Virus record (IMG/VR): IMGVR_UViG_3300013094_000359
Coordinates: 1-20,127 of that record
Direction: 5' to 3' (one strand)
Source: a virus
DNA length: 20,127 bases
Within the stretch, counting starts at the first letter, position 1. Every line of letters begins with the position of its first letter. Below the pieces are notes generated by a model. It did not search any database, had not been told where the DNA came from, and saw only the letters and a program-made list of their open reading frames with translations. The position numbers and the translations under genes are program-made. Shown here piece by piece: positions 91 to 15,084 of this stretch.

Positions 91-1449
91 TCAGGCTGGT
101 GTAATAATAGCGGTATTGCAACGTGGACACACTCTAGTACCGCGTAGAAGTGGTAAGCGACAGTTCTGGCAAAAGTCTGCGAGTGCCGCTAACGACTTCA
201 TCGCAACGCTTCCAGCCATCAAATCTGTAATCGCCCACACCATCGCGTCCATGCGGTCTGGTGATTCTTTGCTATCCGGTTCCCATGTAACGAGTTGATC
301 TTCCAATTCAGGAAACGCGCCAACCATGTGCAGTCGCTTCTGCTCGCTTAATGCCGATACAGGTTCAGCGCGTACTTGCTTACCGCGAGATGCTGTGACC
401 TTGCGTAATGCGACTGTGCTGTCTACCTGCTTCAACACTTCCAATACAAGATCGCCACCATTGTTGGTTTCCGCGATAACACGATCAGCCTTCCATTTGC
501 GATACAACTCCACCGCTTTACGCGCCCAAGCGTCAGGAGTGCCTTTCATCGTGGCATCTTCCAGCACCCAGTAATGTCCATCAGGCGTTGCGCCGGCTAC
601 AACTATTCCGGTCATGTCTGCATCCTCGCCACTTGTCACAGCAGGGTCAATCGCCACGACTATGCGGTAGCACGCTGGCGCTTCAGTAACTCTTGCATCT
701 TCGATCAAGCTTCTAGTCCAGAGCGCTCCTTCGGAATCTTCCAAAAGTTCGCCGAACAACTCCTGCCTACCTAAGCGAGTACCGGCATAGCGCGCTTGTA
801 ATTCTATGAGTGCTTGTGGAGCGAGGTTAGCGGCGTTATCGAAGGTTGAACCGCGAACGATCTTGACTGTGCCGTCTGTACGCTTGGATAGCGTTCTGAT
901 AATAGATACATTCTTAGGCGTGGTGGTAACTACTACGCGAGGATGCTGTCCTAAGCGCATACCGAACTGCAACTGATCCCATGTCTCCGGATAACGCCAA
1001 GCCGCCAACTCATCGCACCATGCTCCATGATGTTGTGGACCGCGTAGGCGATCAGGCTCATCTGCGGAGAAAAGCTTGATACGCGAGCCGTTTTTTAGCC
1101 GGATTAGCCCCGTACTTCTATTGTAGTAATCGAGATTTCCATACTGACGTAGGATAGGGATAACCCCTGATTCACCTTCCGCGCAGACGTCTCTGACGTC
1201 ACCAAAGGTTGGCGCGATAATTGCCCAGCGCGTTGCATCGTGTCTGCTTGCTTCCCACGCAATCCACTCAGCCGCAGTGCGCGTCTTACCAGCGCCACGC
1301 CCAGCCAAGTAAAGCCAAGTACTCCAATCAGCGTCATCAGGCAGTTGCTCCGGTCTCGCCAAGGTTGCCGCCCAAAGCGCTCGTCGTGCTGCGAGATGAT
1401 CGTACAAGCTCAATGATTCGCTGGGTATGTTCAGCAAGGGTGTTTCCAT
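91..1449 (-). CDS. terL: Terminase large subunit (packaging ATPase/nuclease)
   Basis: 452 aa. The N-terminal ATPase has Walker A LAGRGAGKT at residues 48-56 and a Walker B-like WCDEL with D146/E147. The C-terminal RNase H-like nuclease shows AIDPAVTSG near residue 268 and a final acidic residue in RMDAMVWA (D401). This order is that of the motor that pumps DNA into proheads and cuts concatemers. The start lies inside terS: GAGGTGAT sits about 10 nt before ATG 1449, and the family motif RPEQLP...W..WL begins before the terS stop, so a shorter start would lose conserved sequence. Oddity: the last 26 residues form a CxxC...CxxC zinc ribbon (C427, C430, C441, C444) beyond the usual nuclease end. 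Assignment is firm. Confidence 0.96.
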   Translation of the reverse strand: METPLLNIPSESLSLYDHLAARRALWAATLARPEQLPDDADWSTWLYLAGRGAGKTRTAAEWIAWEASRHDATRWAIIAPTFGDVRDVCAEGESGVIPILRQYGNLDYYNRSTGLIRLKNGSRIKLFSADEPDRLRGPQHHGAWCDELAAWRYPETWDQLQFGMRLGQHPRVVVTTTPKNVSIIRTLSKRTDGTVKIVRGSTFDNAANLAPQALIELQARYAGTRLGRQELFGELLEDSEGALWTRSLIEDARVTEAPACYRIVVAIDPAVTSGEDADMTGIVVAGATPDGHYWVLEDATMKGTPDAWARKAVELYRKWKADRVIAETNNGGDLVLEVLKQVDSTVALRKVTASRGKQVRAEPVSALSEQKRLHMVGAFPELEDQLVTWEPDSKESPDRMDAMVWAITDLMAGSVAMKSLAALADFCQNCRLPLLRGTRVCPRCNTAIITPA

Positions 1450-1804
1450 CGTAAGTAATCACCTCTGTCTGTAATTTCTCCGGTGCGTTCAGTCCTAGTA
1501 TTTTTGCCTTGCGGTCGTGGATCGCTAACGCCCTGTCCATCTCCCTCAGCGAGAGTTTGGCTTTTGGCTTGCCTTCCTCGTTGAAGAACAACTGGTGCAA
1601 CAGCGAGTCTAAAAAAGATAATTCGATTTCCCTATGTTCGTCTATCTTCGGGTGAACTCTGCGAGCCTGTAAGCGCTGGTATGCCTTGTAAGCACCACTA
1701 GCGCCGGCGTAACCGAGTGCCTGTCCTATGGCTTCCCATGTAGCGCCGGTATTGCGTAGGGCGATTATTTTAAGGTCACGCTCTACCATTTCTGGCTCAG
1801 GCAT
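1337..1804 (-). CDS. terS: Terminase small subunit
   Basis: 155 aa from the ATG at 1804. That start is preferred because AGGA lies 9 nt upstream; in-frame ATGs at 1810, 1822 and 1882 have poor or badly spaced Shine-Dalgarno sequences, and the last would overlap the HAD gene. Residues near 5-45 form a helix-turn-helix (LKIIALRNTGATWEAIGQAL...), as in TerS DNA-recognition domains. The middle is charged and helical (REMDRALAIHDRKAKILGL), suitable for oligomerisation. TerS recognises the packaging site and loads TerL. Its identity rests on the HTH plus the position before terL; sequence similarity was not tested. Its last 37 codons overlap terL by 113 bp, far more than elsewhere in this genome. 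Confidence 0.8.
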   Translation of the reverse strand: MPEPEMVERDLKIIALRNTGATWEAIGQALGYAGASGAYKAYQRLQARRVHPKIDEHREIELSFLDSLLHQLFFNEEGKPKAKLSLREMDRALAIHDRKAKILGLNAPEKLQTEVITYDGNTLAEHTQRIIELVRSSRSTTSALGGNLGETGATA

Positions 1805-1836
1805 AGCCATTTTTCCTGTCATGTGTGTAGCGTATC

Positions 1837-2283
1837 TCAGGAAATAGGAAATGCAACTGGCGCGCTCATGCCTTCTTCCCAAAAGTAGAGTTCAGCAGGG
1901 CAAGCGTTCTCGTGCAGACCTTTGAGTATCTTCTTGTTGTCCTCGGTAAATCTTGTAATCTGATAATTCTCAATAGCCGCGTTCTTGAACTTCACTACGT
2001 TCTCGATAGACCTGCTCATGGGCAGTAGGGCAACCCCAAGCACTAAATCGCCATATCTCTCTTTGAGCCAATGAGTAGTTATCCCTCTTACGAGAGGTTC
2101 GTCTTTACGAGCGCTTATGGCGTAAAAAGGTTCTGTCGGAATGAGTAGGGCTTTGGCGTTGTCGTATTGGTGAAGTAGGTTCTCTTTGTGGGCTTTACGC
2201 TCTGCGCCGTTCATCCTTCCCCACTTCTTGTCGCTAGGGGTCGGCTTAGAAGCTAATACTCCGTCAATGTCGTAACCGATCAT
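1837..2283 (-). CDS. HAD-superfamily phosphatase-like protein
   Basis: 148 aa. Three HAD signatures can be read: motif I GYDIDGVLA (nucleophile D5, general acid D7), motif II AISAR, and a late motif III/IV region VVKFKNAA...RFTEDNKKIL with a lysine and paired acidic/Asn residues. HAD enzymes use an aspartyl-phosphate intermediate to dephosphorylate small molecules, nucleotides or polynucleotide ends. ATG 2283 overlaps the glycosyltransferase stop by 4 nt (ATGA), so the two are translationally coupled. The setting suggests a supporting step in sugar-nucleotide or nucleotide metabolism for DNA modification, but the substrate is unknown. A DNA 3'-phosphatase role is an alternative. Confidence 0.75.
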   Translation of the reverse strand: MIGYDIDGVLASKPTPSDKKWGRMNGAERKAHKENLLHQYDNAKALLIPTEPFYAISARKDEPLVRGITTHWLKERYGDLVLGVALLPMSRSIENVVKFKNAAIENYQITRFTEDNKKILKGLHENACPAELYFWEEGMSAPVAFPIS

Positions 2284-3206
2284 AAGCCTAGAGCGATGTA
2301 AGCAGTCTCTATATCTCCTGTTGCCGCGATTACCTGCTGTGCGTGTAGTTCTTCTCGCTGGTTCTTGTCCATTCTGAGGAGTTGAGCCAGTTCGTTAGGG
2401 TAATCTGCCGGAAATGCCCAAGCAAGACCCCTATTGCCACGTGGAGCGGCTACGGGTATTCCTGCGAGTAGAGCGTGGTAAGCGCGACCTGTACGCCAAC
2501 CTGTATCGGCGTGTTTGCCGTCATAAATTGCTAGACAGGCTCTCCATTGGCGGTAGAACTCTGAGCGATTTTTCTGCTCCGGCGCTGGAACGACAATTTC
2601 GTTGCCCCATTCTTCTTGCTTACCGGCGATAGTCACAATTCCGCTAGAAAGGAATGGCGCTAGGACTTTGCTTCTGCCGTTAGGTCTGCCGTAATAGATA
2701 GCCGTTGTGTTGATGCCGTCTGCGAACTCGCGTTGTCGCAATACAGCATGGAACGGGATGTCTATGACCTTTGCCGCCGTTGGTACGTTCAGGCGCTTAC
2801 GTACTGCATCAGTATTGACTGCGTTAGCCGCGATAGTCCAGCGAGACCAATCTTCATCTGGCAGTTCTTTCCATAAGAACGGCAGATCCGGGTCATCGTT
2901 CAGGAATACGATCTTGCCCTTGTGTTGCTTGATGATGGCAAATGTCTCTTCCCATGCCTTTTTGTTGAACATGAGGTTATTGCCGCCGAACTCCAGCATG
3001 AGCAGGTCGCAATGGTAGTTAGAAGCTTTTGCGTAACCTGCCTCTTGGCTATTAGGCGTTGGGTCGGTCAAGTACGAGAAAGTATGTCCTCGTTCTTCCA
3101 AGCTTGCGATAAGACCTCTGCGCTTTTCTAGCCACGTACCTCTCGCTCCGGCTTCATTGTCGGTTAGAGGTAGTTTGCCCGATACACGCCGGTAGCCAAC
3201 CTTCAA
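2280..3206 (-). CDS. Predicted glycosyltransferase (GT-B-like), likely DNA-modifying
   Basis: 308 aa with a TTG start at 3206 that overlaps the upstream stop by 4 nt (TTGA); an AGG motif lies 7 nt upstream. The protein divides into an N-terminal half, with the acidic FLNDDPDLPF at 101-110, and a C-terminal half with YYGRPNGRSKVL (171-182), a glycine-rich turn, and R-x-YHALLAG-x-P at 241-251. That last pattern resembles the nucleotide-sugar binding end of GT-B glycosyltransferases (R..E....G.P). Neither a signal peptide nor a membrane segment is seen, so it should act in the cytoplasm. Placed between a TET/JBP-like oxygenase and a HAD phosphatase, it could transfer a sugar onto hydroxymethylated bases. 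Family identity is inferred from motifs; a different nucleotide-sugar enzyme is possible. Confidence 0.6.
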   Translation of the reverse strand: MKVGYRRVSGKLPLTDNEAGARGTWLEKRRGLIASLEERGHTFSYLTDPTPNSQEAGYAKASNYHCDLLMLEFGGNNLMFNKKAWEETFAIIKQHKGKIVFLNDDPDLPFLWKELPDEDWSRWTIAANAVNTDAVRKRLNVPTAAKVIDIPFHAVLRQREFADGINTTAIYYGRPNGRSKVLAPFLSSGIVTIAGKQEEWGNEIVVPAPEQKNRSEFYRQWRACLAIYDGKHADTGWRTGRAYHALLAGIPVAAPRGNRGLAWAFPADYPNELAQLLRMDKNQREELHAQQVIAATGDIETAYIALGL

Positions 3207-4072
3207 CCTTTAACCTGCGACTCTGCTTCGCCTTTGAGTACCTTGACCATCTGTTCTTCACGTTTGGTTCGGTTCTCGCCACCGCGAGCAGTTTCTACTG
3301 CATAGGTGAAGCAATCTTTCATGCCACGTAGCGCGTAATACACGATTGAGTAGCGGTAAGCATCTTTTTTCACCGGCGTCATAGGTGTTACTCCATGCAC
3401 GTACTTGTATCCAGCAAAAAACAGCACCCATCCATCACGGCAAGAGCAAGTGATGTTATAGGCAGGGAAATTGAGGTAGCCGCCTTTCATGTCGCGGCGA
3501 ATAACTGGCATCGCCGACCATGTGGCAAAGTTGAATCCGTCTCTGTGGTAAGGCAGGGTTGAAGATTTATTTACAACGCCGGATGTCCATAGAGCATCAT
3601 CGGTCATGCGCCATTCGTTTTCTAGTCCGGCTTCTTTGAGTGCTTCTACATCGTGTTCGTAGACATCAGGAGCAAACTCCTTGAACATTTTGGCAAACTT
3701 CTCTGCAAACGCAATAAGAACTGCGTGTTCGTTGGGTTGCTCTCCGGCGAGAGTTGTTGGGCGGCAGGACTCTCTACGCTGAAAGACCTTGCGCGGTGCC
3801 ATTCCGAAAGTACGTGAGAGGTTTTCAATACCGAGGCTCTGGCGCTTTGTGCTTCCGTACTTGATGTTCAATACAGACCTGCGTAGGAGATTGACTTCTT
3901 CTTCCATCGGGAAGTAAGCGAGGATAATCTCGTCTGTGTCTTCGTCTACATAAATACCGGCTTCGTTACAGTTGGCTTCGAGGTTCTCCACCATTGTGCC
4001 TACGAGTTCGCTGGATTCTTCTTCCGACATTACTCGCTTGATTTTAATAATTGGAAGATCGGCTAGGTTCAT
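3203..4072 (-). CDS. TET/JBP-family 2-oxoglutarate/Fe(II) dioxygenase
   Basis: 289 aa. The double-stranded beta-helix core shows the iron ligands H176-x-D178 (PYHRDGFNF) and distal H226 (VHGVTPM), with R240 (DAYRYSIVYY) placed to bind 2-oxoglutarate. A GGYLNFPAY segment sits between HxD and the distal His, as in the TET/JBP group. The N-terminal SRTFGMAPRKVF...C103 element and the C-terminal YYALRGMKDC...E..R also match my recollection of phage TET/JBP proteins. Known members oxidise the 5-methyl group of 5-methylcytosine (phage and animal TET) or thymine (JBP). ATG 4072 overlaps the ParB-like stop (ATGA), and the glycosyltransferase follows with another 4-nt overlap. The base substrate cannot be read from sequence. 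The fold call is strong; the family call is good. Confidence 0.85.
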   Translation of the reverse strand: MNLADLPIIKIKRVMSEEESSELVGTMVENLEANCNEAGIYVDEDTDEIILAYFPMEEEVNLLRRSVLNIKYGSTKRQSLGIENLSRTFGMAPRKVFQRRESCRPTTLAGEQPNEHAVLIAFAEKFAKMFKEFAPDVYEHDVEALKEAGLENEWRMTDDALWTSGVVNKSSTLPYHRDGFNFATWSAMPVIRRDMKGGYLNFPAYNITCSCRDGWVLFFAGYKYVHGVTPMTPVKKDAYRYSIVYYALRGMKDCFTYAVETARGGENRTKREEQMVKVLKGEAESQVKG

Positions 4073-4731
4073 TCTCTTGGAGCCTTCTCGTTGTAAATAT
4101 CTTCAACCAGTTTGACGATCGCGTCAGCGTTTGTTGTGAGTCCGTGACGTTGGCGGTAATCGCTTAACTTCTCGATAAGCCATACGTAAAGAGTGTTCTC
4201 GTAATCTGCCATCAACATACGAGTTTGCTTCGCGTTGTAGCGTTCGGCGTATTCGCCTAATGAGGTACCGACATTGACGTTGCTTAATCCTGTTTCACCA
4301 ATTTTAGGTGCGAGGTGAATATCTGCTCCGAGGTTAGGTGTCGCTTGCTCATCAAGTAGTGCGAGCAAACTGTCTACATCATCTTGCGCGTAGCCGGTAG
4401 CAGTAAGATCAGGCAAATCTCCCAATAGTTCTAGAAGCTTCTCGGTGTCGTATTCACCAGAGTCAGATGTCTTGTTATCGATCGCTACAATCTTCGCGGC
4501 TGTCGCTTCATCTACATTGACGTATGTGACGGCGATAGTTTCCCAACCGAGTTTTTGTGCGGCGGCATACGTATGGTTGCCGGCTAGGATTTCATTGTTA
4601 CGTAGGTTCACAGTAATCGGTTTGTATTGCCCGTAAGCTTCCAACGATTCAGCGATTAAATCTACGTTGCCTTTGCGTGGGTTCTTTGCATAAGGCTTAA
4701 TTGCCGTAAGAGCGATTTCTTCGATTTCCAT
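4069..4731 (-). CDS. ParB/Srx-fold protein (ParB-like nuclease domain)
   Basis: 220 aa. Residues 5-80 form a ParB N-terminal-like domain: I..YAKNPRKGN (17-22), an IAESLEAYGQYKPITV helix-strand, and AGNHTYAAA (50-58) where chromosomal ParB has a G-x-R-R box. The following VDEATAAKIVAIDNKTSD is also typical of phage ParB-like proteins. The C-terminal 110 residues are not recognised and may bind partners. Unlike ParB partition proteins, such stand-alone phage domains occur with DNA methylases and modification enzymes, and some are nucleases or CTPases. Here it is the first gene of the oxygenase/glycosyltransferase set, so a role in targeting or regulating modification is a reasonable inference. 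No ParA is seen in the window, so plasmid-style partition is unsupported. Confidence 0.8.
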   Translation of the reverse strand: MEIEEIALTAIKPYAKNPRKGNVDLIAESLEAYGQYKPITVNLRNNEILAGNHTYAAAQKLGWETIAVTYVNVDEATAAKIVAIDNKTSDSGEYDTEKLLELLGDLPDLTATGYAQDDVDSLLALLDEQATPNLGADIHLAPKIGETGLSNVNVGTSLGEYAERYNAKQTRMLMADYENTLYVWLIEKLSDYRQRHGLTTNADAIVKLVEDIYNEKAPRE

Positions 4732-5115: not shown

Positions 5116-5456
5116 GGCGCTACCTCGTCAGTCTTTGCCTTCTTGCTGATTTTGACCTCAGAAATGCTTTGACCCAAGATAGATAAATAAATCTTCTCTA
5201 CGCCGTCTTTGACATGCCGCTTGTAGCCGAATACGCCCTCGACCTCGACCAGATCGCCTTTGCGGTAAAAGTCCATAACCGCGTCTGCGTTCTTGTTCCA
5301 GAAGCTTACATCGAACCAAATTGTCTCACCCTCGCCTTTGGATTTTGACCAAGGTGTAAACGCTAATGAAAACTCAGCAACTGCTTCATCTCCGACTGCT
5401 TTGAGTTCAGGGTCTTTGCCTATACGCCCCTGTATTGTGAGTCTATTCTTCGCCAT
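5109..5456 (-). CDS. ssb: Single-stranded DNA-binding protein
   Basis: 115 aa OB-fold protein. RLTIQGRIGKDPELK at the start, FSLAF, and the IWFDVSFWNKNADAVMDFYRKGDLVEVEG core are diagnostic of bacterial/phage SSB. SSB coats single-stranded DNA in replication and recombination. The disordered Gly/Pro/Gln tail is missing, so the protein is short compared with bacterial SSB (about 160-180 aa), and the end is DEVAPW rather than the usual DDDIPF. The acidic-plus-aromatic tip that recruits partner proteins is therefore altered. GGGGG lies 5 nt before the ATG. The gene overlaps the HNH gene by 14 nt. Confidence 0.93.
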   Translation of the reverse strand: MAKNRLTIQGRIGKDPELKAVGDEAVAEFSLAFTPWSKSKGEGETIWFDVSFWNKNADAVMDFYRKGDLVEVEGVFGYKRHVKDGVEKIYLSILGQSISEVKISKKAKTDEVAPW

Positions 5457-5790
5457 CTTTGCCCCCTAAGTGATGGATAGTTCCATCTTCGTTGAGTAAT
5501 ACGATTGAGCCGTCAGGCTGAACAAATGGCGTTTCTGCCGGTTCTTGCCAAGACCCAACCATCCATCCTTTGCGCTCTGCTTCCGCAGGGTTCAGGTGAA
5601 TACTGTTTGTGTTTAAGTTGTGGCACCCGTGATGTATCCAAATCAGGTTAGTCACGCTATCTTCACCGCCGCGTGATTTAAGCTTGCGATGGTGAAGTGC
5701 CATGCTCTCATGCGCGTTACCGCCACAAGTCTCGCAGTAGCCGTTGGCACGACTTACTACCTTCTGAACAATCTTTGCGTCAATAGCCAT
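5443..5790 (-). CDS. HNH endonuclease (first of two)
   Basis: 115 aa from ATG 5790, chosen because AAAGG lies 9 nt upstream and TGATG couples it to the gene before; a longer frame to 5832 would overlap that gene. The motif CETCGG...ALHHRKLKSRGG...NLIWIHHGCHN holds the two zinc-binding CxxC/CxxH pairs and the catalytic HH..N..H arrangement of the beta-beta-alpha-metal nuclease fold. The C-terminal 40 residues are unrecognised. Phage HNH enzymes act in packaging or as mobile homing nucleases; there is no intron here. It sits between a secreted lysozyme-like gene and ssb. Confidence 0.87.
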   Translation of the reverse strand: MAIDAKIVQKVVSRANGYCETCGGNAHESMALHHRKLKSRGGEDSVTNLIWIHHGCHNLNTNSIHLNPAEAERKGWMVGSWQEPAETPFVQPDGSIVLLNEDGTIHHLGGKDGEE

Positions 5791-6185
5791 CAGTACCAAC
5801 CTTTCCGCTTTTCGTGCTTTAGTGCCGTACAAGGGTTGCCGTAACGAGCAGAGATATAGTCTAGTCCGGCTGTAATCTGAGTCAAGGCAGATTTAGGTCG
5901 AACTGGGTAGTGATAGTCCACCCAAGTTTGATCAAGAAATTGCGGAATACCGAACGCCGTAGAGTGCGGATTAGAAGCTTTTGGATTCCAATGGCTTTCT
6001 AGTGTCCATAATTCATTGAGACAGGAATCTTGCCGGATACTGTGCCACTCGCCTAGAACTACATACTTTGCATACGTTTTGGGTTGCATTACGAAGTCTT
6101 TAGGCGCAAATGCGGCTTGCGCTCCGACCGACTGGCAAGACCCAACCAAAATGGCTGTTACAAGGATCTTGCGCCAAATCTTTAT
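5790..6185 (-). CDS. Secreted lytic transglycosylase/lysozyme-like protein
   Basis: 131 aa if started at the ATA codon at 6185. The domain ELWTLESHWNPKASNPHSTA then FGIPQFLDQTWVDY, QITAGLDYISARYGNPCTAL and a final KGWY is the small transglycosylase-like fold seen in Rpf/aggregation-promoting-type proteins; the E of TLESHW is the likely catalytic glutamate. In front lies a clear signal peptide, KIWRKILVTAILVGS ending AQA before AFAPKD. No ATG, GTG or TTG begins that signal; the only standard start in frame, TTG at 6149, would remove most of it. AAGGT lies 6 nt before the ATA, which overlaps the preceding stop (ATAA). It probably remodels or degrades peptidoglycan. The product call is good, the start is uncertain. 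Confidence 0.75.
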   Translation of the reverse strand: MKIWRKILVTAILVGSCQSVGAQAAFAPKDFVMQPKTYAKYVVLGEWHSIRQDSCLNELWTLESHWNPKASNPHSTAFGIPQFLDQTWVDYHYPVRPKSALTQITAGLDYISARYGNPCTALKHEKRKGWY

Positions 6186-6283
6186 TCTTTGACCTTACTC
6201 CTTAAAGAGCAGTAGGAGCAGACTGTTGCCACCCATAGTTGAACGCCGCAAGAACGGCACCGAGTTACGAATGAATCATCCAT
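6182..6283 (-). CDS. 33-aa zinc-ribbon microprotein
   Basis: Begins MDDSFVTRCRSCGVQ and has a second pair CSYC, giving CxxC-x11-CxxC, a compact zinc ribbon with almost nothing else. The ATG at 6283 has an excellent ribosome binding site, AAAGGAG, 8 nt upstream, so initiation here is far more likely than at the in-frame ATG 6439. The stop overlaps the start of the lysozyme-like gene. Function unknown; such tiny ribbons may bind nucleic acid or host proteins. Confidence 0.7.
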   Translation of the reverse strand: MDDSFVTRCRSCGVQLWVATVCSYCSLRSKVKE

Positions 6284-9669: not shown

Positions 9670-10400
9670 ACGCGTTTCAGGATTTCTTTGATTGAATCCG
9701 GCATAGGCACTCCTCTAGGGAGTTCAGAACTGTTGAATCGAGGCGGTGTTGCGGTCGGCGTAAGATCGAGGCTCCTAGGGGCGTTTAACGGCTTTCTAGG
9801 GGGTAGGGGTTCGTCTGTCCAACGCTCCGAATTGAGCCAAGTGGCAGGGTGGGGCGTGAACGTCTCATCGCGGTTCGGGTCTTTGGCGAATCTCTCAGCG
9901 CCGGCTATCACCGATTCGTATTCTGTCGAGGCTATCTTGTCCCAAGCTTTTCTAGCAGCGCCTTTGGCAACCTTGCGTGGGTAGTTAGTCCAAAACTCCT
10001 CAAACGCGACTTCTTTCTTTTTTCTTATAGGTAATTCCTTAATAGGTTCTTCTAAAGAAGTCGGGTTACCGGAAGTCGGTAAACCGGAATCCGGTTTTCG
10101 CACTCCGGTTGGCTGGTCATAGACTGTGCTGATCGTCTCGAATTGCCCGTTGTCGTGCCTGATGCGTGTCGTGACGATGTAGCCCAAATCCCGTAGTTCG
10201 GTCAGGCAGGTCAGAATTGCCCCTCGCCCCTCTTTTGACGAGCGAGCAAGGATTTCTGCGGATATCTTCCAGTTGTCGGGTCGGGAGAGAATCTCCAGCA
10301 AGATACCTCTCGCCCGATAGGACAGGCGAGAGTCTCTTACCACTTCGTTCGCAACAATCGTGTAGTGATTATCGGGTCGAGGTGAACGTACTATGCTCAT
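9666..10400 (-). CDS. Winged-helix replication initiator/replisome organiser
   Basis: 244 aa. The N-terminal 80 residues (YTIVANEVVRDSRLSYRARG, NWKISAEILARSSKEGRGAI, LRDLGYIVTTR) form a winged helix of the type in phage replication organisers. A low-complexity Pro/Ser/Thr/Gly linker follows (about 97-118), then a C-terminal domain FEEFWTNYPRKVAKGAARKA ... HPATWLNSERW that is widespread in phage replication proteins. Such proteins bind the origin and recruit helicase. The linker DNA holds 15-bp repeats next to an AT-rich stretch, listed as a candidate origin. Start ATG overlaps the WhiB stop by 4 nt. The domain call is confident; the exact family name is not. Confidence 0.8.
   Translation of the reverse strand: MSIVRSPRPDNHYTIVANEVVRDSRLSYRARGILLEILSRPDNWKISAEILARSSKEGRGAILTCLTELRDLGYIVTTRIRHDNGQFETISTVYDQPTGVRKPDSGLPTSGNPTSLEEPIKELPIRKKKEVAFEEFWTNYPRKVAKGAARKAWDKIASTEYESVIAGAERFAKDPNRDETFTPHPATWLNSERWTDEPLPPRKPLNAPRSLDLTPTATPPRFNSSELPRGVPMPDSIKEILKRV
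10009..10117. repeat. Candidate replication origin: 15-bp iterons beside AT-rich DNA
   Basis: Two head-to-tail 15-bp units, AAGTCGGGTTACCGG (10058-10072) and AAGTCGGTAAACCGG (10073-10087), match at 12 of 15 positions. A degenerate third unit starts at 10088 and another CCGGTT at 10105. An 8-bp-arm palindrome AAACCGGA-A-TCCGGTTT covers 10081-10097. Immediately on the left, 10009-10060 is strongly AT-rich with long pyrimidine runs. Iterons plus an unwinding stretch inside the initiator gene is the arrangement of lambda ori within gene O. In protein they encode a pentad linker (SGLPT, SGNPT). Confidence 0.5.
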
Positions 10401-10810
10401 AAAGAAATCGCCCTACGCCTTTCGATCACTTGCAAAGTCCGTGAGCGATAAGTGCTTTGACCGGCGAACTTCTTCTCGTAAGCCGTAGTGATCTCAATGA
10501 TTTCTTCGGGAGTTATCCCTCGCAACTCAAAATCGGTCATGATCTGCGCAACGATGGAATTGAAGCGACCGAGCCGGAGCGCCTGACGTTCTTCTCCCGT
10601 CATGCCACCCCACACGCCGTAGGTCTCATGCTCCAACGCGTATTCGATGCAGTCTCGCCAAATAGGACATGGAGCACAAATATTTCTAAATGTGTCGACG
10701 TTCATAAGCTTCTTGACGGCTCTGCTCTCTTCCCACGCGTAGAACACATCTGTCGAACCTACATCACGGCAAGCCGCCTTATCCCAATTTACTTCTGAAT
10801 ACTTTGGCAT
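10397..10810 (-). CDS. whiB: WhiB-family iron-sulphur transcription factor
   Basis: 137 aa from ATG 10810 (GGAG, 7 nt upstream); an in-frame ATG at 10855 is less well placed. The four iron-sulphur cysteines are C14, C45, C48 and C54 (C-x30-C-x2-C-x5-C), followed by GVWGGMTGEER, the WhiB turn. WhiB proteins bind a 4Fe-4S cluster and act with the primary sigma factor; they are restricted to Actinobacteria and their phages, so this gene identifies the host phylum. A C-terminal helical extension of about 55 residues, ending in basic RSRTLQVIERRR, is longer than in small Wbl proteins and may contact DNA. It probably controls phage or host promoters, possibly including 9214-9242. Confidence 0.95.
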   Translation of the reverse strand: MPKYSEVNWDKAACRDVGSTDVFYAWEESRAVKKLMNVDTFRNICAPCPIWRDCIEYALEHETYGVWGGMTGEERQALRLGRFNSIVAQIMTDFELRGITPEEIIEITTAYEKKFAGQSTYRSRTLQVIERRRAISL

Positions 10811-11451
10811 CCGACCTCTCCTGTTGGATCGAAAAACTCGCAATACAAAGCGCAATACGAGGCATACTTTTCCGGCGCTGGTGCTTCTTCAGATGCGCGC
10901 ACTTCAGCAAGCCACGCGATACCTGCTTTAGCAATTGTTTGATCGTAAGCTTCTACATGAGCGCGTATCTCGCCCATCTGTCCGTCACGCGGAATAACTA
11001 CGAGAGACACTTCATTGACGGGATAGCCGTTGTTCTCTAGTAGCCACCCATAAATCTGCACCTGCATACGTTGTTGTTCTGATGGAAAGTAACGCAGGTT
11101 CTTCTTCGTGGTTGTTTTCCAGTCCACGACCAAACCCTGATCTTTGATAAATAGGTCAACGTGTCCTTTCATGCCTTCGTGCGTAAACTCCTGCTCGATG
11201 AGGAAATTGTCACCGAATGGATCTTCGCGTTTGATGGCTTCGCTGATGCCGGCGTGAATAAACGTGCCGAGGATAGCCGCGAGACCTTCCGTGTCGTGAT
11301 TAGTCTCCGGTGTCTGGTTGATAGAATGCCAAACTTTTCTACGGCATCCCCCAATAGACGATGGACCGATCTCGACCTGATTCGATCTATCGCGGCTTTT
11401 ATCCCAGCCGTTGAGTGCAGTAGACAGCATTTTTGCGATGTCATTCGACAT
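10789..11451 (-). CDS. Cas4/RecB-like PD-(D/E)XK exonuclease with Fe-S cysteines
   Basis: 220 aa. The nuclease core reads GTFIHAGISEAI, then GMKGHVDLFI and LVVDWKTTTKK, that is, the H...D...DxK active site of the RecB/Cas4 group, followed by QQRMQVQIYGWLL (QxxxY motif). C36 (GGCRRKVW) near the start and C200, C204, C215 near the end are placed to hold a 4Fe-4S cluster as in Cas4/AddB. No CRISPR array or cas1/2 is present, so the likely job is DNA end resection in phage recombination, partnered with the annealing-protein candidate at 12647-13198. Confidence 0.85.
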   Translation of the reverse strand: MSNDIAKMLSTALNGWDKSRDRSNQVEIGPSSIGGCRRKVWHSINQTPETNHDTEGLAAILGTFIHAGISEAIKREDPFGDNFLIEQEFTHEGMKGHVDLFIKDQGLVVDWKTTTKKNLRYFPSEQQRMQVQIYGWLLENNGYPVNEVSLVVIPRDGQMGEIRAHVEAYDQTIAKAGIAWLAEVRASEEAPAPEKYASYCALYCEFFDPTGEVGCQSIQK

Positions 11452-13346: not shown

Positions 13347-13520
13347 GTGATGGTTGAGTCTGAACTCAAGTATCCCGACCAAATTGACGATGTAGTGAAC
13401 CGAACTCAGCAGTTATTCCAAAGCGGTATCGAAGCCGCCAAGAAGCAGGGCATCGACATTACTCAGCCGGTGATCGGTGAGGCTGTCGCTATCGACTTAG
13501 AAGATTTCGAGGAAGATTGA
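13347..13520 (+). CDS. Lone plus-strand small acidic protein
   Basis: 57 aa from GTG 13347 (GGAG, 7 nt upstream); the next codon is an ATG that could also serve. It reads MMVESELKYPDQIDDVVNRT, then QQLFQSGIEAAKKQGIDI and an acidic end IDLEDFEED. The helical centre and charged tail suggest a small regulatory or inhibitory protein, but no family is recognised. It is the only plausible gene on this strand, and its last 58 nt lie opposite the end of the proteasome-like gene. Confidence 0.55.
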   Translation: MMVESELKYPDQIDDVVNRTQQLFQSGIEAAKKQGIDITQPVIGEAVAIDLEDFEED

Positions 13521-14050
13521 GATTTCAACTGTTGCAAAAATAAGAACGGCTCAGAGGTGTACGGGTCGTGCTTACTTGCGATCTGCAACGCGCCTTTGAT
13601 GGTCGCTCCGGCTTCCAACGCGCCAATAGCGAGACTTGAACCTGACCCAACTCCGTAAAATCCTGACGAGGACATACTGACCGCGAAATCGTCAGCGATG
13701 TCGAAAACTTCTCCGCAAACCGCTATCAGAAATGCGAAACGAGTATCTTCCTCTTTTTCGGATTCCAGTTTGAGATCATTCGCCTTGAAAGATTCTTTCA
13801 TTGACGGAATGACTTTCGAGATAACAAAATGGTAAAGGTCTTTTTTATCTTTGACTGTAGGTGTTGGCGGTTCCCAAATGTGCTGTGCGACATCGCAGAA
13901 GCTTGATAACCCCGCACCGGCGATAATGTAATTGTTGCGCTCGCTGATTTTAACCATGTTTGGATGATTGTATTTACGCGTAGAAGTGACTAGAGAATCA
14001 GCGCCAAAATACACGCCGTCATCTTTTTGTACCGCAACAATTGTTGTCAT
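13463..14050 (-). CDS. HslV/proteasome beta-like Ntn-hydrolase peptidase
   Basis: 195 aa from ATG 14050 (TAATG with the preceding stop). Removal of Met leaves an N-terminal TTIVAVQ like HslV. Counting that Thr as 1, GADS places Asp at 17 and MVKI places Lys at 33, the exact catalytic T1/D17/K33 of proteasome beta and HslV subunits; YGVGSGSSLAIGALEAG matches the conserved GSG helix region. No long propeptide is present, so it resembles HslV rather than actinobacterial PrcB. No HslU-like unfoldase is in the window. The last 17 residues (Ser/Lys-rich) overlap the plus-strand gene and may be dispensable. It probably degrades or matures proteins; targets are unknown. Confidence 0.82.
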   Translation of the reverse strand: MTTIVAVQKDDGVYFGADSLVTSTRKYNHPNMVKISERNNYIIAGAGLSSFCDVAQHIWEPPTPTVKDKKDLYHFVISKVIPSMKESFKANDLKLESEKEEDTRFAFLIAVCGEVFDIADDFAVSMSSSGFYGVGSGSSLAIGALEAGATIKGALQIASKHDPYTSEPFLFLQQLKSQSSSKSSKSIATASPITG

Positions 14051-15084
14051 TAGTCCAGCCAAACCTTGTATGCCGCAGTTACTCTGCCTTTAACGGGATC
14101 GACAAAATGAAGCCGTTGCGATGGTGTTGCGCTCGCGGCAAGATTTACCGATGCGTACCTGTTTTCACTTTCAGTAGAGCCTGTTTGATAGACCGCGCCC
14201 AACCCATTCGCCATCGCCCATTCTGCGTGGGTATGGTAGTGACCAATGTATACGTCACGGAATTCCCAGTTGTACGAACCTGAACGCCAGCGGTTGGCGT
14301 GCTGAACGATGGCTCCCGGACTAGCGAATCCATTGCGACCGACTTCGTCTCCGTGTATGAGTAATGCACGATAGTTCCCAATTTCTACTCGCTGGATATC
14401 TTCAGGACATTCCTGCCACGATAATCTTTTTTCGCCGGCTAAGAGTTGTCGAGCCAATTCATAACACATGCGATCAAAATTATCAGAGCGAGGTACGTTA
14501 TCGCGCTTAGACCCAATACGACCATGATTTCCCCATTCCGGCACTACTGTGACTTTTTTATAGTTTGCTAGTGCGTAGCGCACGACATCAACGCACAACC
14601 GAGAGACATTGACGTATTGCTCGAATAGCGTTGCATCGATCTCAAAAGCTTGTGACGGGAAGTTGAATAGACCTTCTACCATGTCACCGCCAAACATAAT
14701 CACAACATCATCGACTGGGTGATCTTTGCGTTGTATTTCGGTGATCTTTACTGCCTTCTCCGCAAATTGCAGAACGCGATCGCGCATGATGTCGGAGTTG
14801 TATGAAGGTGTTTTCTTTGCGCCTTGCCAGTCTGTCATGTGCCACAACGCGACTTCCGGCTTACCTTTAACAGATAAAATCTTTGGTGCTGGCACAGGCG
14901 AAATTGCGCCCATAGTGAGTTGCGCTCCGTAAGCGGCGTTATGCGTTGCTTCTACGAGATCGTCTACGCGTTGCTTCGATTGGATAAGCTTCTTTTGCAA
15001 ACGCATCAACGCTGTGCGTAGTTCTTTTACTTCGACAGACTCAATACCTTCCGGCAAATTGTCTAGCGAATCTTTGAGGCTCAC
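14050..15084 (-). CDS. Calcineurin-like metallophosphoesterase
   Basis: 344 aa with a GTG start overlapping the preceding stop by 4 nt. A 60-residue helical N-terminus (LRTALMRLQKKLIQSKQRV) precedes the phosphoesterase core: MTDWQ (D85), FGGDMVEG (D134), EWGNHGR (N186/H187), IHGDE (H244, D246) and GHYHTH (H282, H284), all five metal-binding motifs in order. The family includes nucleases of the SbcD/Mre11 kind and nucleotide phosphatases, and a phage branch of this size with a coiled-coil N-terminus is common. It may process DNA ends or branched DNA. No SbcC-type ATPase is adjacent. Confidence 0.85.
   Translation of the reverse strand: MSLKDSLDNLPEGIESVEVKELRTALMRLQKKLIQSKQRVDDLVEATHNAAYGAQLTMGAISPVPAPKILSVKGKPEVALWHMTDWQGAKKTPSYNSDIMRDRVLQFAEKAVKITEIQRKDHPVDDVVIMFGGDMVEGLFNFPSQAFEIDATLFEQYVNVSRLCVDVVRYALANYKKVTVVPEWGNHGRIGSKRDNVPRSDNFDRMCYELARQLLAGEKRLSWQECPEDIQRVEIGNYRALLIHGDEVGRNGFASPGAIVQHANRWRSGSYNWEFRDVYIGHYHTHAEWAMANGLGAVYQTGSTESENRYASVNLAASATPSQRLHFVDPVKGRVTAAYKVWLD

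Follow-up and report, generated by a model that had tools for sequence, protein, structure and literature searches.

The DNA analysed here, referred to as the window, is the entire IMG/VR record IMGVR_UViG_3300013094_000359, a viral genome fragment of 20,127 bases. Analysis of the window revealed an operon of four overlapping genes ahead of the terminase genes, encoding a ParB-like protein, a TET/JBP-type oxygenase, a glycosyltransferase (GT) predicted to have a GT-B fold and a predicted phosphatase of the HAD superfamily. The four genes very probably add oxygen and then a sugar to a base of the phage DNA, as armour against host nucleases. From the protein families, the folds, the catalytic residues, the conserved linkage and the exchange of gene cassettes, all of which were computed, we infer the substrate, the sugar, the order of the reactions and the protection. 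The reading that we favour, and consider probable, is that of a post-replicative hypermodification operon, which would convert thymine to 5-hydroxymethyluracil (5hmU) and then to glycosyl-5hmU.

Each of the three junctions between the genes (Table 1) is a 4-nucleotide (nt) overlap, ATGA at 4069/4072, TTGA at 3203/3206 and ATGA at 2280/2283. The TTG start codon of the GT gene is credible because it is kept in the relatives L003 and L005, with ATG taking its place in more distant relatives. The ratio dN/dS was about 0.06-0.13 where it was computable, and the gene order, tied to the terminase, was kept in dozens of contigs; the operon is therefore real and beyond chance. The order ParB, TET/JBP, tailoring genes and terminase, with short overlaps, is that of the ParB-TET/JBP operons found before terminase genes. 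A preliminary description of this DNA had given the four open reading frames (ORFs) the same ends and overlaps, and our analysis agrees; all four are on the minus strand. Its placement of terS within 33 nt was roughly right: the mechanical terS ORF (1337-1882) overlaps the HAD gene, and comparison with relatives indicates that the likely start is the ATG at 1822, 14 nt past the HAD stop, giving a protein that begins MTGK. It had also described the operon as fused to the packaging genes; the operon is adjacent to and co-directional with the terminase genes, and there is no gene fusion. Its identification of the four products, including the oxygenase residues H176, D178, H226 and R240 and a DxDGV motif in the 148-amino-acid (aa) HAD protein, was borne out, in part by the profile search and the structure prediction that it had proposed as checks.

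Table 1. Operon genes and adjacent terminase genes of the window, with the basis of each assignment
Feature	Position	Strand	Basis
ParB-like protein, 220 aa, operon gene 1	4069..4731	minus	Pfam ParB_N (N-terminal domain) 1.9e-6, PHROG 723 2e-46
TET/JBP-type 2-oxoglutarate/Fe(II) oxygenase, 289 aa	3203..4072	minus	Pfam Tet_JBP 7.7e-9, PHROG 6059 1e-80
Predicted GT-B fold glycosyltransferase, 308 aa, TTG start	2280..3206	minus	AlphaFold model, Foldseek, VIA
Predicted HAD-superfamily phosphatase, 148 aa	1837..2283	minus	motifs D5/D7, S57, K100, E114-D115; model fold
Putative small terminase subunit (terS)	1337..1822	minus	PHROG 645 5e-21; directly before terL in relatives
Large terminase subunit (terL), 452 aa	91..1449	minus	Pfam Terminase_6N 1e-28, Terminase_6C 5e-20

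The oxygenase scored 35.4 bits against Pfam Tet_JBP, just above the gathering cut-off of 34.9, and a profile built from 21 of its relatives matched the solved Naegleria Tet structure 5cg8 at 4e-4. In these relatives, down to 44% identity, H176 and D178 of the HxD motif, H226 and the 2-oxoglutarate-binding R240 were all invariant. Among cultured phages the protein had 92 matches, the best being to Rhodococcus phage Tonitrus (48%). These data support its assignment as a TET/JBP oxygenase, with predicted activity on a 5-methylpyrimidine in DNA. The label 'queuine tRNA-ribosyltransferase', carried by PHROG 6059 and by several RefSeq records of the TET/JBP family, looks like a propagated misannotation. 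In relative L002 the oxygenase ORF (1840-2736) is split by a stop while the contig is otherwise near-identical, which may reflect a mistake in assembly or a copy that is no longer functional.

The 308-aa protein had no match in Pfam, PHROGs or NCBIfam. Its AlphaFold model, obtained from 14 relatives, had a pLDDT of 89.9 and a pTM of 0.86. The nearest solved structure was T4 beta-glucosyltransferase (BGT; Foldseek 6e-9; VIA-align Z 21.7, root-mean-square deviation (rmsd) 3.5 Å over 290 aligned residues); T4 alpha-glucosyltransferase (AGT) was second in VIA-align (Z 18.3), with other GT-B enzymes from Z 17.3 down. On this model the protein can confidently be assigned as a GT-B fold glycosyltransferase that is BGT-like in fold. 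The fold is shared with both T4 enzymes over nearly the full length, but there is no significant sequence similarity to them and no match to their Pfam families (for the BGT family PF09198, none at E≤1); moreover, the window GT is linked to TET/JBP and HAD genes, whereas the T4 glucosyltransferases are linked to dCMP hydroxymethylase. A weak local alignment pairs D105, invariant in 15 relatives, with the catalytic D100 of T4 BGT (DDPDLPF versus FTDIRLPF). The GT would thus work like BGT, although the BGT family as catalogued does not include it. TAGT (PF20691), the TET-associated glycosyltransferase of phages, likewise follows the oxygenase, but it is of the GT-A type and unrelated; PF20691 had no match in the window GT, whose model is GT-B. 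Sequence searches are the basis of a 2026 survey of T-even glucosyltransferases (PMC13216743), and such searches would miss the GT family of the window.

The 148-aa HAD protein was also without a match in Pfam, PHROGs or NCBIfam, and profile searches of solved-structure sequences returned chance matches only for both the GT and the HAD protein. The two are uncatalogued families. The residues of the four HAD motifs (D5, D7, S57, K100, E114 and D115) were invariant in 14 relatives down to 41% identity, and the model (pLDDT 95.9) has a Rossmann-like HAD fold, the nearest structure being the 3'-phosphatase domain of T4 Pnkp (Z 11.8, rmsd 2.9, 117 aligned residues), with AphA and others at Z≤10. 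Motifs and fold together point to a phosphatase.

In a profile-guided scan, 67 viral contigs proved to carry the GT, and 50 of them have flanks long enough to test for linkage, taken as the presence of the oxygenase and the HAD gene within 1.5 kb of the GT. Both partners were present in 45 of these contigs, the oxygenase only in two, the HAD gene only in two and neither in one. TET/JBP, GT and HAD are therefore a conserved unit. Its gene order varies: ParB-TET-GT-HAD-TerS-TerL is found in the window, and ParB-GT-HAD-TET beside terminase-like genes in L137, L142, L144, L158 and L159. In T4-like phages the trio lies after uvsX and the genes for a gp40-like protein and a gp41-like helicase, and the oxygenase is longer (Pfam Tet_JBP 3e-24). 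Nearly all related siphophage-type loci have the ParB gene ahead of the oxygenase; the T4-like carriers lack it. Among bacterial and archaeal genome contigs, the GT and HAD genes were found in one contig of a metagenome-assembled genome only. A tandem pair of ParB-like genes stands before the oxygenase in L019, L034, L038-L041 and L177, and in L118, L121 and L124 a gene encoding about 370 aa (cluster c33) is inserted either between the GT and HAD genes or immediately after the GT gene. The gp41-like helicase of the T4-like relative L125 (3233-4453) seems to have an intein-like stretch, ending in VSSHN, inserted at Walker A before TGVGKS.

This linkage bears on the role of the HAD protein. It could be a nucleic-acid 3'-phosphatase or a repair nucleotidase that hitch-hikes in the operon while the oxygenase and the GT modify DNA, as its nearest fold would suggest; L141 and L173, which have GT and TET with no HAD gene nearby, are also consistent with this. 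However, the HAD gene stands beside the GT in 47 of the 50 testable contigs, including contigs without TET, no kinase or ligase partner accompanies it, and the margin of the Pnkp fold over other HAD proteins is small. We regard a hitch-hiking HAD as unlikely, though it is the alternative that survives best.

The interval from the oxygenase to the terminase was surveyed by profile searches in 79 oxygenase loci and found to hold exchangeable cassettes: the PF18751 kinase in 29, a TAGT-type or similar GT-A in 21, the GT and HAD of the window type in 13 and another GT-B in seven. The kinase loci mostly also hold ADDT (PF18724), with a flavin adenine dinucleotide (FAD) oxidase or a pyridoxal phosphate (PLP)-type protein. 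The window-type GT never co-occurred with the PF18751 kinase in these loci, and the family profiles found neither a 5hmU DNA kinase nor ADDT among the window ORFs. Switches of cassette type number at least 19 on the oxygenase tree and at least 16 on the TerL tree. The window TerL groups with those of L021 and L022 (support 98; 91-93% identical), in which the cassette consists of ADDT, FAD oxidase and kinase; the oxygenases of L021 and L022 fall in the kinase-cassette part of the oxygenase tree, whereas that of the window falls with the carriers of GT and HAD (95). Since the two trees place the window differently relative to L021 and L022, the oxygenase seems to move together with its cassette. 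In L058, a second oxygenase-like gene (5181-6266; Asp_Arg_Hydrox PF05118, 1e-7) lies inside a kinase-type cassette.

The exchanged cassettes are informative about the base. The names of the kinase and ADDT families, in Pfam and in the Tonitrus paper (PMC11955845), refer to the DNA chemistry of 5-hydroxymethyldeoxyuridine. If one oxygenase family, occupying one slot, serves both 5hmU-type tailoring enzymes and the GT, 5hmU made from thymine is the simplest shared intermediate. L148 and L153 carry GT and HAD without TET and have instead a thymidylate-synthase-like gene and HMUDK_hel (PF18723). The thymidylate-synthase-like enzyme of L148 is 50% identical to that of PaMx11, a phage of the Mesyanzhinovviridae, which have been described as carrying a deoxyuridylate hydroxymethyltransferase (PMC11946847). 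Our reading of these proteins rests on this similarity, because in an alignment with T4 gp42 the key residue for dUMP or dCMP was not decisive. L148 and L153 may represent a second route to 5hmU that feeds the same GT.

The steps can then be proposed as follows. In these phages, loading or guiding the oxygenase on DNA is probably the task of the ParB-like protein, and the oxygenase would hydroxylate the 5-methyl group of a pyrimidine in the phage DNA, most likely thymine, giving 5hmU. The BGT-like GT would move a sugar from a nucleotide-sugar onto the hydroxyl of 5hmU, giving a glycosylated 5hmU that resembles base J. The HAD protein may remove a phosphate from the sugar donor, the product or a DNA-linked intermediate, which is the least certain step. 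Modification before packaging would fit the position of the operon ahead of terS and terL. More tentatively, we suggest a widespread phage pathway confined to uncultured viruses, in which TET/JBP, a third family of DNA glucosyltransferases and a dedicated HAD protein make base-J-like glycosyl-5hmU, perhaps via a phosphorylated sugar intermediate that the HAD protein would then trim; such a base is not known to have been reported from any phage.

Several points weigh against thymine glycosylation. A GT-B fold by itself does not name the acceptor, the motifs and fold of the HAD protein do not name its substrate, and at the sequence level the GT shows no significant resemblance to T4 BGT (hhalign probability 1.4%). 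T4 BGT is inactive on 5hmU paired with A (PMC4111573), which means that a true 5hmU glycosyltransferase must differ from it. In favour of the thymine reading, T4 BGT does glucosylate 5hmU weakly, or when it is opposite G, giving base J (PMC4111573), which leaves room for a dedicated enzyme. Finally, L018 (38.7 kb), the sole near-full-length contig in the GT+HAD clade of the window, has a full C5-methyltransferase (PF00145) about 11 kb upstream.

The last point concerns the cytosine version of the pathway, in which a phage or host C5-methyltransferase would make 5-methylcytosine, the oxygenase would convert it to 5-hydroxymethylcytosine (5hmC) and the BGT-like enzyme would glycosylate the product. 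Such a route was reportedly proposed by Burke et al. in 2021 for the TET phages of metaviromes. The nearest fold, T4 BGT, acts on 5hmC, and 5-methylcytosine keeps some weight as the substrate because the window is a fragment and L018, its closest near-full-length relative with GT and HAD, encodes a methyltransferase. However, no C5-methyltransferase was found in the 20-kb window, and PF00145 was present in only four of 28 records; the 24 without it include four T4-like contigs of 102-160 kb that carry the trio. Methyltransferases also occur in the kinase-cassette records G006 and G007 and so do not track the GT+HAD cassette, and the enzymes exchanged in the slot are 5hmU enzymes. The preliminary description had proposed that a methyl base is oxidised and then sugared; the enzyme families fit this, and the base can be refined, since the 5hmU-type cassette swaps and the lack of a C5-methyltransferase in most carriers make thymine likelier than methylated cytosine. 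The cytosine version is, on this evidence, rather improbable. It is very unlikely that the GT and HAD act on a non-DNA acceptor, such as a phosphorylated disaccharide that the HAD dephosphorylates, and stand beside the oxygenase by operon coincidence: such GT-B/HAD pairs exist (trehalose- and sucrose-phosphate synthase/phosphatase), and trehalose-6-phosphate synthase was among the weaker Foldseek matches and sucrose-phosphate synthase among the VIA matches, but two phage DNA glucosyltransferases stand clearly ahead of the other structural matches (Z 21.7 and 18.3), and the pairing of GT with oxygenase persists across unrelated phages and when the gene order is reversed.

The layout of the operon is already known. 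In Gordonia phage CaiB (2022), genes 1-5 before the terminase overlap by 4 bp and encode ParB-like, TET/JBP, pyrophosphorylase and kinase proteins (PMC9302106), and Rhodococcus phage Tonitrus has a similar ParB-TET/JBP-tailoring-terminase layout (PMC11955845); the operon of the window is therefore counted as a variant of this organisation. The actinobacteriophages CaiB and Tonitrus and the Mycobacterium phages ChrisnMich and Acadian resemble the window in having these genes directly before the terminase with 4-bp overlaps, and their oxygenases are 43-48% identical to that of the window; they differ in that their tailoring genes are a kinase, ADDT (aGPT-PPlase2) and others, and none has the window GT or HAD. 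The preliminary description knew of no account of this four-gene set, which holds for the GT-HAD variant and not for the layout. That variant appears undescribed: tblastn with the GT and HAD gave no match in 50,697 cultured-phage records, and a description of the GT-HAD-TET set was not found in the literature searched. Glucosylated 5hmU was stated in 2019 to be unreported from phage genomes (PMC6449724), and N-acetylglucosaminyl-5hmU (GlcNAc-5hmU) had earlier been predicted for Mycobacterium phage Acadian, as cited in PMC4111573.

The predicted chemistry, thymine to 5hmU to glucosyl-5hmU, is that of base J in trypanosomatids (JBP1/2 and the J glucosyltransferase), a pathway that differs in being eukaryotic and in using a different glucosyltransferase. 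Thymidine hypermodification reportedly uses 5-HMUDK, ADDT and FAD or PLP enzymes (Lee et al. in 2018 and 2022). In the 29 relatives with a kinase, its genes fill the same slot after the oxygenase; the window has neither kinase nor ADDT, and the hydroxyl would presumably be capped by a sugar, not an amino group.

Elsewhere in the window, a WhiB-like regulator gene was found at 10397-10855 which, together with the oxygenase relatives in phages of Mycobacterium, Gordonia, Microbacterium, Arthrobacter and Rhodococcus, points to a probable actinobacterial host. A gene for an HslV-family (proteasome-like) peptidase lies at 13463-14062 (PHROG 1040, 5e-27). The C-terminal tail of TerL has a small zinc-ribbon-like CxxC...CxxC element (weak DZR/Zn_Ribbon matches), which is also present in relative L147.

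If the thymine reading is true, a two-step scheme like that behind base J, a modification so far known in trypanosomatids and allied organisms, also operates in bacterial viruses and yields a relative of that base. The GT would then represent a further family of DNA glycosyltransferases that sequence searches overlook, and which would be useful for labelling 5hmU. The fixed oxygenase slot beside the terminase would be one that is refitted with varied tailoring cassettes, likely in an arms race with host nucleases.

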